Origin: Candidatus Poribacteria bacterium | GTDB lineage: Bacteria > Poribacteria > WGA-4E > UBA9662 | NCBI GenBank assembly: GCA_002709695.1 | Contig: PAQF01000002.1 | Coordinates: forward strand, 67,452-112,948 | Reading direction: 5' to 3' | DNA length: 45,497 bases | Shown: positions 875 to 4,700 of the stretch, in pieces | Layout of the letters: every line of letters begins with the position of its first letter | Position numbering within the stretch: the stretch's first letter is position 1 | Position numbers and translations under genes: made by a program | Notes under the pieces: generated by a model | Told to the model about the DNA's origin: nothing | Database searches by the model: none | Seen by the model: only the letters and a program-made list of their open reading frames with translations

Positions 875-2014
875 ATGCTTGATTGGGAAGATCTGCGACG
901 CTTTTTTCCGGTCACACAAAAATATATTTACTTGAACCATGCAGGTGTTTCGCCATTATCAACACAAGTTCAATCAAGCATGGAAGCCTTTTTAAAAGAG
1001 GCAACAGAAAATGGTTACACTAACCCCGAAATGTGGACGGAGACGATAGAGTCATGTCGACAATCCGCAGCAAGACTCATCAATGCCAATCCCGATGAGA
1101 TAGCATTCGTCAAGAACACCACACAAGGCATTATTCTGACAGCCAATGGTATAAACTGGCAGGTCGGGGATAATGTTGTCACGACGAACGTCGAATTTCC
1201 TTCAAACATATACCCATGGTGGAACTTAGAACGACATGGAGTTGAAACTCGGCTAGTTCAAGAAATGAATAAACGAATCTTAGTTGAAGACATTATAGCC
1301 AAAATCGATTCACGTACACGGATTGTTACAATCAGCCATGTTGAGTTTGCATCAGGTTACCGAAACGATATCACTACTATAGGAGAAATATGTAGAGACA
1401 AAGGCATCTTATTTTTTGTCGATGCTATTCAAGCACTTGGGGCTTTTGAAGTTGACGTAAAAAAGCAGCATATTGACTTTCTCTCAGCCGATGGACATAA
1501 ATGGTTGTTAGGCCCAGAGGGTGCTGCTATATACTATTGTGCGAAAAACAAGCTCAATCAACTAACTAACACCAATATTGGTTGGGCTAGTGTTGTTGAT
1601 GATTTAAGCTTTTCAGAGTACAACCTAACGCAGAAACCCTCTGCAAGACGATTTGAAGAAGGGTCCTACAACACCGTTGGTATATTCGGTTTGAATGCCG
1701 CAATCACATTATTGTTGGAAATTGGTATTCCAAATATTGAACGCCGAATCCTAGACTTAACACAATGCTTAATTAAAAATTTATATGATCAAGGTTATGA
1801 GATTCTTAGTCCTGTGGAAAATGAATTGGAACGTTCAGGAATCGTAATTTTTCGAAGCCGGAAATTTTCTTCGGACATGTTGTTTGAAATATTTTACCAA
1901 TCAGGAGTATCGTGTGCAAAACGTGGGGGAGGTATTCGACTATCACCACATTTCTATAATTCGGAAGCCGAAATTGACATAGTGGCTGATATTCTATCCA
2001 CAGTTGCTGATTAG
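875..2014 (+). CDS. Class V aminotransferase (cysteine desulfurase/isopenicillin-N-epimerase-like)
   Basis: This 379-residue protein is a fold-type I PLP enzyme of aminotransferase class V. The N-terminal YLNHAGVSPLS motif, the central SHVEFASGYRND and FFVDAIQALG (PLP-ring aspartate) motifs, and ADGHKWLLGPEG with the Schiff-base lysine at K209 are all present. The C-terminal small domain ends with a GVSCAKRGGGIRLSPHFYN stretch, which fits the SufS/NifS/CsdA superfamily arginine that binds the substrate carboxylate. Length is normal. Members include cysteine desulfurases, selenocysteine lyases and epimerases; there is no Suf/Isc gene nearby, so the substrate cannot be named. The TAG stop directly abuts the stop of the convergent gene at 2015, with no spacer for a terminator. 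Confidence 0.85.
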   Translation: MLDWEDLRRFFPVTQKYIYLNHAGVSPLSTQVQSSMEAFLKEATENGYTNPEMWTETIESCRQSAARLINANPDEIAFVKNTTQGIILTANGINWQVGDNVVTTNVEFPSNIYPWWNLERHGVETRLVQEMNKRILVEDIIAKIDSRTRIVTISHVEFASGYRNDITTIGEICRDKGILFFVDAIQALGAFEVDVKKQHIDFLSADGHKWLLGPEGAAIYYCAKNKLNQLTNTNIGWASVVDDLSFSEYNLTQKPSARRFEEGSYNTVGIFGLNAAITLLLEIGIPNIERRILDLTQCLIKNLYDQGYEILSPVENELERSGIVIFRSRKFSSDMLFEIFYQSGVSCAKRGGGIRLSPHFYNSEAEIDIVADILSTVAD

Positions 2015-2818
2015 CTATATTTTCATGTCAAGTGAAACAAGAATTGCAACTCGGTTACTAAACTGTTGACCTATGTCATCTTTAGGAAAAACATCTACAT
2101 AACTAGAAATCACCATTTTATCAGACAGTGTCTTTGGTTTGGCAAAATGTGGTATATCAACGTTTTCAATGTAATCGTCTGGATATTTATTGAATTCTTC
2201 GTTTTGGTCAAAAATTTTCTTGATTTTAAATGCATACTTGGCAGTCTCTGAAAATATTGATCTTGGCGAAGAGACAGGAGAGCTACTATCCCTATGTACT
2301 TGAATTTCGATTCTCTTAACTTGGTCAATCTGCTTTCGAAGACTAGCGAGGCATTCCACAACGCGGGAGATTTGTGACCTGAATTCTTCAGTCAAATTGG
2401 AATTCTTAGTGTCAAAAAAATTATTGTCGTCAATGCTGATAAACATAATCTTCAATTGGCCCAATCCTGATCCTAGATGAGGTAAATTCACACTGTTGAG
2501 TCTACTCTCAAATATCATATCCGGTTCAGTATTAGCATATCCTTCAAGTTTCCTAATCATCTGACGGCGAGATCCCCATTTTTCCCTCTCGACTCGATGG
2601 GAGTTAAATCTGTGGCTAGGTTGCCACATGGAAACAATACTTTGCAAAGTAAAAGGATCACGTTGCACCTGATCGAGTAATGAAATTACTAGCAAAAAGA
2701 TAAAACACATCAAAATAGCTACTAGACTGTTTAGGGTGATGATCCAACTAGTCTCATCATCTTCCTCTAATTTCTCTGTCAGGTTCAAGGCTGTTATTTG
2801 TTTTATATTAAGATTCAT
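2015..2818 (-). CDS. MotB/OmpA-like motor-accessory protein B2 (no transmembrane Asp)
   Basis: This 267-residue protein has a short N-terminal cytoplasmic tail, one transmembrane helix at about residues 26-48 and a periplasmic domain. The C-terminal part contains RIEIQVHR and SNRVAILV, weak copies of the OmpA-like start (I.I.GHTD) and end (NRRVEI) strands, so it is a degenerate OmpA/MotB peptidoglycan-binding domain. MotB, TolR and ExbD carry an essential proton-accepting Asp early in the helix. Here the helix (ITLNSLVAILMCF) has no acidic residue at all; the first is D49 at its outer end. Its start overlaps the end of the 362-residue paralogue by 11 bases, so translation is probably coupled. 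It is the third gene of the MotA-like operon. It could be a non-conducting structural partner. Confidence 0.7.
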   Translation of the reverse strand: MNLNIKQITALNLTEKLEEDDETSWIITLNSLVAILMCFIFLLVISLLDQVQRDPFTLQSIVSMWQPSHRFNSHRVEREKWGSRRQMIRKLEGYANTEPDMIFESRLNSVNLPHLGSGLGQLKIMFISIDDNNFFDTKNSNLTEEFRSQISRVVECLASLRKQIDQVKRIEIQVHRDSSSPVSSPRSIFSETAKYAFKIKKIFDQNEEFNKYPDDYIENVDIPHFAKPKTLSDKMVISSYVDVFPKDDIGQQFSNRVAILVSLDMKI

Positions 2819-3896
2819 TTTTCACATCAATCAAAACTAGGATAACAACACGGCGATTTCTGTCTTGCATATCTAGTGTCTCAAGGTCACGTCTTTTCCG
2901 ATAAACATTTAGTTGTGCATTTTCTACTTTGAGCAAATAGATTACTTCTTCATTTCTGCCCATCGGTCCGCGATCCACGAGCATCCACAATTTCCCAGGG
3001 CGAATTGCCATTAGTTTACTTACTTTATCTAATCTAATGTTTTTTTCTTCAAACAAACTTTCAATTCGCTTGATTTTTTTGTGGTCAGTATTATTTTGAC
3101 CTCCTTCATCTTGAGACGTTAAATTGTATTCTATATCATATATAAGCTCTGAAATTTTTGCGTCAAAACTAAAAATGTAACGGACATTTTCATCAACAAA
3201 AGGATATTGATCTCCATAACCGGCAATGATAGTTTTTCTACTTAGCCCTGCTGGAAAACCCCATTCTTTCATAATATGCTTGACATCGTTAGCACGAGCT
3301 ATATCAAGTTCTCTCTTAGAAGTATAAGAACCTACTGCGTTACTGCTGAAATTGCTAGCACTATGTACTTGGATCTCAATTCTTTTGATACGATCAGTCT
3401 GTTTTATACGGAACTGCTCTTGCGTTTGCTTTGTTCGGGTAGGATCAGGTATTGTGAGATGTTTAGCAAAAGTAAATAGCTGTTTCTCAAATCCATCTAC
3501 AACTTTGGAACTACCAGGCTTAAATAGTTTTCTTCCACCATCTCCATTAAATGTGATTTGAATCTGACCTAAATCTGATTCAAGGTTTGGGATATTAACG
3601 CCATTCAATATTCTATTAAAAATGACGTTTCTATTGACATTAGCAAACTCATTAAGATTATAAAGCATAGCACGTAGTGCCTTAATGCTTTCTTTGGTTT
3701 TCTGAGTGGTCTCCTTTGAAGGTTGAGGTGTTGAATCAGTACCAGATAGGGAAAATGGGTTTCGTTCTACTTGATCAGAAAGTAAAACCAGCAGCATAAG
3801 GAAAAAACAGCAAAAAATGGAGATTAATCCGCTTAGATTGATGAACCAATCCCAATTGTCATCTGTTTCCGATTGCTTTATCAGTGTCAACGGCAC
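2808..3896 (-). CDS. MotB/OmpA-like motor-accessory protein B1 (no transmembrane Asp)
   Basis: The 362-residue product has one N-terminal transmembrane helix (about residues 18-40) and a long periplasmic part with a recognisable OmpA-like domain: RIEIQVHSAS in place of I.I.GHTD, then RELDIARANDV (the S..RA helix), AGYGDQYP (GyGe..P) and N-x-R-Y. A further tail of about 100 residues follows and ends in NRRVVILV, which resembles a second OmpA closing strand. The helix WFINLSGLISIFCCFF aligns with the ExbD/TolR/MotB helix, but Ser or Gly sits where the proton-carrying Asp belongs, and no acidic residue lies inside it. It starts 33 bases after the MotA-like gene and overlaps the next MotB-like gene, which places all three in one operon. 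Family membership is fairly secure; function is not. Confidence 0.72.
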   Translation of the reverse strand: MPLTLIKQSETDDNWDWFINLSGLISIFCCFFLMLLVLLSDQVERNPFSLSGTDSTPQPSKETTQKTKESIKALRAMLYNLNEFANVNRNVIFNRILNGVNIPNLESDLGQIQITFNGDGGRKLFKPGSSKVVDGFEKQLFTFAKHLTIPDPTRTKQTQEQFRIKQTDRIKRIEIQVHSASNFSSNAVGSYTSKRELDIARANDVKHIMKEWGFPAGLSRKTIIAGYGDQYPFVDENVRYIFSFDAKISELIYDIEYNLTSQDEGGQNNTDHKKIKRIESLFEEKNIRLDKVSKLMAIRPGKLWMLVDRGPMGRNEEVIYLLKVENAQLNVYRKRRDLETLDMQDRNRRVVILVLIDVKNES

Positions 3897-3929
3897 AGCT
3901 TACACCTTAAATTGTGAAGGTAGAGATTA

Positions 3930-4700
3930 TCATCTGAGTGGGAGAAACACCTGAAGTTTGTCACGTATGATTTCGGTTGGTACGTCATTGATAAGCAGGA
4001 TAATACCTTCCATAATAACGTTCATCAAAACAACTCTTTGAGTTGCACGGTTCTCAATTTTTACTGCCACAGGGGTAAAAAGAAAATTGCTGAGGAGAAC
4101 TCCATAGAAAACACTTAACAACGCCATTCCCATACCGGTTCCTAGCGAAGTCATCAACTCTGGATTATTACTGTCCAAACTTCGCATCATCATAACAAGA
4201 CCTATTAATGTACCAAGTACACCAAAAGCAGGAGCAATCTTGGCCATGTTACGAATGACTTTGGCTTCCGAAATATCATTGCGATACGTATTATCGATAC
4301 GTTCTGTCATTGAACGCTGAACTTCATCAACAGGATGCTTATTAATAACCATTCGCAAACCATCGCGGAGAAAGGCTTCACCAATCTCATCCGCTTCATC
4401 AGGATTAGTTCGACTTTCCTCTTCCATCGTGCCAGCTGAAAGTGTCTCAATTTCCTGAATATAATTTTCTACAGAGATCTCATTTCGACTTAGTGCTTTC
4501 ATATAACTTCTAAAAGCTCCTAAAACCTTATTATGAGGGTAAGCTATGAAGGTAGTACACACAATACCACCTAAAACAATTAGAAGCGCTTTTAGATCAA
4601 AGAACCAAGCAAACCTGTCAAATTGGAAGGCGATTGACCACAGTATTGCAATACCTAATAGCAGAAAGCCTACAACAATTCCAATGAGAGTCGATTTCAC
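3930..4700 (-). CDS. MotA/TolQ/ExbB-family ion-channel subunit
   Basis: The 256-residue protein has the four-helix MotA layout: helices at about 1-24, 35-55, 155-175 and 190-212, with a cytoplasmic loop between the second and third. The second helix carries LKALLIVLGGIVCTT, typical of MotA. The third starts IAPAFGVLGTLIGLV with the channel proline P157, and the fourth ends NFLFTP with the second conserved proline P210. The start is GTG, supported by an AAGGAG nine bases upstream. Such subunits form a channel with MotB- or TolR-type partners and drive rotation or envelope work by proton or sodium flow. It is the first gene of an operon with two MotB-like proteins and no flagellar genes, so a gliding, Tol-like or envelope motor is as likely as a flagellar stator. 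Confidence 0.85.
   Translation of the reverse strand: MKSTLIGIVVGFLLLGIAILWSIAFQFDRFAWFFDLKALLIVLGGIVCTTFIAYPHNKVLGAFRSYMKALSRNEISVENYIQEIETLSAGTMEEESRTNPDEADEIGEAFLRDGLRMVINKHPVDEVQRSMTERIDNTYRNDISEAKVIRNMAKIAPAFGVLGTLIGLVMMMRSLDSNNPELMTSLGTGMGMALLSVFYGVLLSNFLFTPVAVKIENRATQRVVLMNVIMEGIILLINDVPTEIIRDKLQVFLPLR

Follow-up and report, generated by a model that had tools for sequence, protein, structure and literature searches.

What becomes of a MotAB-type stator when the aspartate of its channel is gone? The usual view is that such stators are retained for the rotation that ion flow powers. The window analysed here, a stretch of 45,497 nucleotides from Candidatus Poribacteria (contig PAQF01000002.1, positions 67,452 to 112,948), contains an operon for one MotA-like and two MotB-like proteins, and neither MotB-like protein has an acidic residue in its transmembrane helix. 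We asked whether this assembly could still pass ions and, if it does not, why the three genes persist.

The operon and its products

ORF analysis places the three genes on the minus strand, in the order MotA-like, MotB-like 1 (MotB1) and MotB-like 2 (MotB2) from position 4700 down to 2015 (Table 1). The genus is sampled by two genomes, the window's own (G000) and that of a sister species (G001); both carry the operon, without the Asp in either MotB copy. A promoter and terminator scan of the operon gave matches at chance level only.

Table 1. Coordinates of the operon, its channel sites and the convergent neighbour (positions in the window)
Feature	Positions	Strand	Remarks
motA-like gene, first in operon	3930..4700	-	256 aa; Pfam MotA_ExbB 8.6e-21, NCBIfam MotP/PomA/MotA models to 6e-41, PDB MotA/PomA chains
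motB-like gene 1	2808..3896	-	362 aa; C-terminal insertion, partly common to the G002 orthologue
motB-like gene 2	2015..2818	-	267 aa; 11 bp overlap with motB-like gene 1
MotA-like codon 197 (GTT, Val), TM4 Thr column, PomA T186 equivalent	4110..4112	-	
MotA-like codon 196 (AGT, Ser), PomA T185 equivalent	4113..4115	-	Ser in both genus species
MotA-like codon 164 (Thr), PomA T158 equivalent, TM3	4209..4211	-	retained
MotB-like 1 transmembrane helix, residues 18-40	3777..3845	-	no Asp/Glu
MotB-like 1 codon 23 (GGA, Gly), channel Asp column	3828..3830	-	
MotB-like 2 transmembrane helix, residues 26-48	2675..2743	-	no Asp/Glu
MotB-like 2 codon 31 (AGT, Ser), channel Asp column	2726..2728	-	Gly (GGC) in G001
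Class V aminotransferase-like gene, convergent neighbour	875..2014	+	outside the system; synteny marker

The MotA-like protein scores 74 bits against the Pfam MotA_ExbB model (cut-off 22.9), its best NCBIfam models are MotP and PomA, and almost its entire length aligns with solved MotA and PomA chains. It has four helices and keeps the cytoplasmic domain. Both channel prolines, P157 and P210, are present and are invariant in the alignment of close relatives, in agreement with an earlier reading of the sequence alone (the sequence-only reading), which had described a MotA-like subunit with these two prolines.

The same reading had assigned OmpA-like domains to both MotB-like partners. By sequence these are weak or absent, the Pfam OmpA match of MotB1 reaching 18.8 bits, under the 27.2 cut-off, and MotB2 having no Pfam match; the fold itself is supported by AlphaFold models of modest confidence (mean pLDDT 60.5 for MotB1 and 67.2 for MotB2), which match MotB-, PomB- and OmpA-like periplasmic domains in the PDB. 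In MotB1 the peptidoglycan-site motif GHTD/GHSD has become VHSA or VHSS, with the Asp lost and the Arg kept. In the MotB2 of the window it reads VHRD, with the Asp kept and no alignable Arg, and the MotB2 of G001 lacks this Asp. Judged by these residues, the peptidoglycan site appears eroded too in the MotBs of the genus.

No flagellar gene was found among the ORFs of the window, the translations of the larger ones having been read by eye. The genome, however, has flagellar genes, with FliG on contig C26 and a cluster on C40, and the earlier statement that there are no flagellar genes here therefore holds for the window but not for the genome.

Both sides of the ion site

The helices of the two MotB-like proteins are WFINLSGLISIFCCFFLMLLVLLSD and WIITLNSLVAILMCFIFLLVISLLD. 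Alignment with Asp-bearing orthologues places G23 of MotB1 and S31 of MotB2 in the channel Asp column. The sister species has Gly at this position in both copies, and the other MotB partners read for comparison all have Asp (29/29). The shared state of a second species in both copies, together with the Asp in every other partner, indicates that the absence is not a matter of chance. A sequencing or assembly error was considered and rejected, since the second species reaches the same state with different codons. The first acids past the helices, D41 in MotB1 and D49 in MotB2, are conserved in all four MotBs of the genus; they sit on the periplasmic side of the helix, 18 residues past the channel column. 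We also rejected another register with D16 of MotB1 as the channel acid: this residue lies 7 residues before the column, where Asp-bearing orthologues have Glu or Asn and MotB2 has Ser or Gly, and the alignment assigns it to the cytoplasmic flank. Polar residues (Asn and Ser) persist in the MotB helices, and Thr164 of MotA also lies in the core. The alignment thus upholds the sequence-only reading where it saw no acidic residue in either helix and the first acids, D49 and D41, at the outer ends; its 'Ser/Gly or Ala/Ser' at the aligned place is narrowed to Gly in MotB1 and Ser in MotB2.

The ion site of Vibrio PomAB is made up of T158, T185 and T186 of PomA and D24 of PomB (PMC6677748; structure PMC10374538). 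Stators with T158A, T185A, T186A or D24N support neither motility nor ion flow, and PomA T186I was isolated as a null mutant; complexes with T158A, T186A or D24N still form, and T185A affects complex formation (PMC6677748). At the T186-equivalent column, the MotA of the genus has Val (V197 of the window) or Ile (G001), and all 34 other rows of the alignment have Thr (34/34). The T185 equivalent is Ser in both genus MotAs, as it is in two other relatives (L051 and L054), and the T158 equivalent, T164, is kept. The MotAs of the Asp-bearing poribacterial operons have Thr at all three sites. Codons at the channel sites differ between G000 and G001. None of the four MotA helices has gained an acidic residue, according to the helix sequences and the alignment. 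The MotA half of the ion site has been lost in the genus beside the MotB Asp. That a single lineage lost both sides of one contact speaks for the abandonment of ion flow itself.

In L051 and L054 (proteobacterial, deltaproteobacterial MAG), the MotA homologue is followed by a long coiled-coil-like protein and not by a MotB.

Relatives, partner gene and selection

Close relatives of the MotA (at least 44% identity) occur in 5 of the 85 genomes of the phylum: G000 and G001, G002 from the same family as the window's genus, and G019 and G021 from the same order. The operons of G002, G019 and G021 encode a MotA and a single MotB with the Asp, in the motif SFSD. The convergent aminotransferase gene also adjoins the operon in L031, L032 and L033, and this shared neighbour identifies them as the same locus. 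The MotB tree joins the four Asp-less proteins in a single clade (100/100), which sits on a long stem (1.65) within the poribacterial MotBs, and the MotA tree gives the same grouping. A horizontal origin was rejected, both the trees and the synteny placing the operon with Poribacteria. Since three related genera have the same locus with a MotA and one Asp-bearing MotB, we consider the loss and the duplication to be derived; the simplest course is one loss of the Asp followed by duplication of the MotB within the genus lineage, with the exact sister unsure where long branches meet. The sequence-only reading had taken homologues with the normal Asp at this column as potential evidence against its proposal. 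Such homologues do exist, but they reveal a derived loss and do not overturn the proposal.

In G019 and G002, the gene for a cyclic-nucleotide-binding (cNMP) protein stands directly before motA, and in G021 this protein is split into two pieces at two contig ends. Its C-terminus matches FliG_C, the target of MotA in flagellar motors, with 48 bits in G019 and 45 bits in G021; a full-length relative in G002 has a C-terminus that falls under the Pfam cut-off for this domain. The cNMP protein is absent from both genus genomes. Gene order and domain content suggest that the ancestral unit had its own putative rotor-side partner, perhaps gated by cyclic nucleotides. The literature searched yielded no description of a cNMP-FliG protein or of an Asp-less MotB.

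The loci of this cNMP protein are L032:3769-4980, L033:3739-4983, L070:2894-3952 (with L090) and L088. G070 encodes a cNMP-FliG protein too, on a contig that ends about 150 bp past the gene. In G000, a cNMP-binding domain is fused to FliH (contig C40, L064:4591-5820) in a flagellar cluster with FliF-, FliG- and FliI-like genes; this fusion is a second link of cyclic nucleotides to flagellar-type parts in the phylum. In G000 and G002, the gene that directly follows a purM-like one encodes a stand-alone FliG_C protein (L062:3712-4467 on G000 C10; L072:4142-4975; L068:4513-4923). Such proteins, of about 240-330 aa, are the only FliG_C match in most of the order-level relatives searched, in which the search for relatives of the operon MotA gave none. 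Both genus members further encode a short protein that resembles FliG and has its middle and C-terminal domains (L063:4169-4870 on G000 C86; L073:4920-5594), whose gene adjoins that of a very large Gly/Tyr-rich protein.

The estimates of selection come from a single genome pair, G000 against G001, at a moderately saturated dS of about 0.9. The dN/dS ratio is 0.12 for MotA (bootstrap 0.08-0.18), 0.22 for MotB1 (0.15-0.31) and 0.25 for MotB2 (0.15-0.34); for comparison, the aminotransferase and UbiA neighbours give 0.09-0.10 and the flagellar MotBs 0.06-0.07. All three genes are under purifying selection, the MotBs more loosely, and all three frames are intact in both species, which argues against simple decay. 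The TM3-TM4 region is the most conserved part of MotA (dN 0.061), in line with a continued need for assembly. The pattern fits an assembly whose contacts matter and whose ion path does not. MotB2 changes at roughly double the rate of MotA, and a slow loss of its function is conceivable.

A probable non-conducting assembly and its alternatives

We favour, with a probability of about 0.68, the reading that a MotAB-type unit lost its ion path and its partner and was kept as a non-conducting, probably static assembly of MotA, MotB1 and MotB2. The ancestor would have been an ion-driven unit outside the flagellar clusters, with the gene order still seen in the relatives: cNMP protein, MotA, Asp-bearing MotB. 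In the genus, the partner gene would have been lost, the MotB would have lost its channel Asp and been duplicated, and the MotA would have lost the facing TM4 threonine. A MotA pentamer probably surrounds a MotB1/MotB2 pair, as in 5:2 motors, so that an axle without a carrier would face a hydrophobic residue on the wheel at the ion-passing site; the complex would assemble and would neither conduct ions nor rotate. It may serve as a static scaffold or tether between the inner membrane and the periplasm, with the C-terminal insertion of MotB1 possibly acting as a binding module. The retention of assembly with loss of conduction is predicted by analogy with mutants of Vibrio PomAB, a sodium stator, and the coupling ion may differ here; the 5:2 stoichiometry, the MotB1/MotB2 heterodimer and the scaffold role we infer. 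Of the three options offered by the sequence-only reading, a non-conducting assembly is the one best supported.

Its suggestion that another residue carries the proton fares poorly, with no new acid in the MotA helices and the MotA half-site lost. A complex that still conducts and rotates could use a non-carboxylate path (Asn, Ser, Gly, Thr164 and water) or D41 and D49 as carriers. That all four genus MotBs conserve these two acids on the periplasmic side of the helix, that polar residues persist in the helix and that the operon is under purifying selection all speak for this. However, 18 residues past the channel column the acids are far from the Asp-Thr site, the Thr partner is gone as well, no MotA helix supplies a substitute, and the D24N and T186 mutants do not conduct (PMC6677748); we regard continued conduction as unlikely. 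Slightly less probable still is a decaying remnant, freed from selection in the genus stem. The long MotB stem branch (1.65), a MotB dN/dS that exceeds the 0.06-0.07 of the flagellar MotBs three- to fourfold, the weak OmpA score and the lost peptidoglycan-site residues would agree with decay, but the three frames remain intact in both species at a dS of about 0.9, the dN/dS ratios are well below 1 with bootstrap limits that exclude 1, and the constraint on MotA is like that on its housekeeping neighbours.

The remaining option of the sequence-only reading, a third acidic partner encoded elsewhere, can be judged from the other MotA_ExbB and MotB_plug matches in the genome: C43 encodes an ExbB-like protein and C57 an ExbB/TolQ-like one, C26 carries a MotAB pair, contig C73 starts with a MotB, and C39 has two short MotA-like proteins. 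Only the MotBs of C26 and C73 were found to bear the Asp, and either might in principle join the operon MotA and supply the carrier. Both, however, lie in flagellar loci; next to the C26 MotB lies a MotA of its own, the G001 counterpart of the C73 MotB likewise has one, and these flagellar MotAs are only about 25-27% identical to the operon MotA, which itself lacks the TM4 Thr. A profile search of the genome with Asp-bearing MotBs found no orphan. A borrowed carrier is therefore very improbable. We give least weight, as a remote prospect, to a regulator or decoy in competition with the cell's flagellar stators: flagellar genes and FliG proteins are present in the genome and the MotA keeps its cytoplasmic domain, but identity to the flagellar MotAs is low, no flagellar gene lies near the operon, and the Asp-bearing relatives already occupy a separate locus with their own partner protein.

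The two MotA-like proteins of C39 (L065:3385-3843 and 3923-4378) are similar, in tandem and about 152 aa long, with no adjoining MotB, and seem to lack the large cytoplasmic domain.

If the non-conducting reading is true, the MotA/MotB architecture can be useful without ion flow, comparable to pseudoenzymes without catalysis. The Asp-bearing relatives provide a lead open to testing: outside flagellar clusters, their MotAB operon includes a cNMP-binding FliG-domain protein, an arrangement of which the literature searched gave no description. A wider picture is tentative and somewhat doubtful: Poribacteria may have a non-flagellar rotary unit in which MotAB has a rotor partner to itself, a FliG-type protein gated by cyclic nucleotides, and one genus may have made of this unit a non-conducting structural complex with two axles, maintained by selection as a natural dead stator in a new role.

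Among known systems, the poribacterial cNMP/FliG_C-MotA-MotB(Asp) operon (L032, L033 and L041) is orthologous, with MotAs 44-48% identical and, in L032 and L033, the same convergent aminotransferase; it differs in having one Asp-bearing MotB, TT in TM4, an intact GHTD/GHSD motif and the cNMP gene. Flavobacterium GldLM is a motor of the 5:2 type proposed here, with an axle that lacks the MotB Asp. There the carrier acid is a Glu in GldL, the outer subunit, whereas the operon MotA helices have no replacement Asp or Glu. Zorya ZorAB is also a MotAB-type unit outside flagella, and ZorB structures are among the fold matches of MotB2; ZorA models, however, match the operon MotA with E values of 0.01 or worse, and no ZorCDE-like genes were seen among the translations of the larger ORFs of the window, read by eye. 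The parallel with Myxococcus AglRQS drawn by the sequence-only reading fits in subunit count, one MotA-type and two MotB/TolR-type subunits, but AglQ and AglS keep the Asp that the operon MotBs lack, and their peptidoglycan-binding domains are TolR-like (PMC9389320). MotAB relatives have been divided in a survey into flagellar (FIT) and generic (GIT) transporters, the B subunits of the latter having no OmpA-related domain (PMC12505986); with a MotA/PomA-like subunit and a MotB-like fold, yet outside flagellar loci, the operon fits neither class neatly. It shares with Vibrio PomAB and Bacillus MotPS the MotA fold, both prolines, an alignable TM3 Thr, and MotBs with one helix and, in the models, a MotB-like periplasmic fold. 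In contrast to these stators, its MotBs are two in number and lack the Asp, the T186 equivalent is Val or Ile, the T185 equivalent is Ser, and the locus is non-flagellar. PomAB and MotPS are thus the systems closest to the operon, yet two features that define their family, the Asp and the TM4 Thr, are missing from it.
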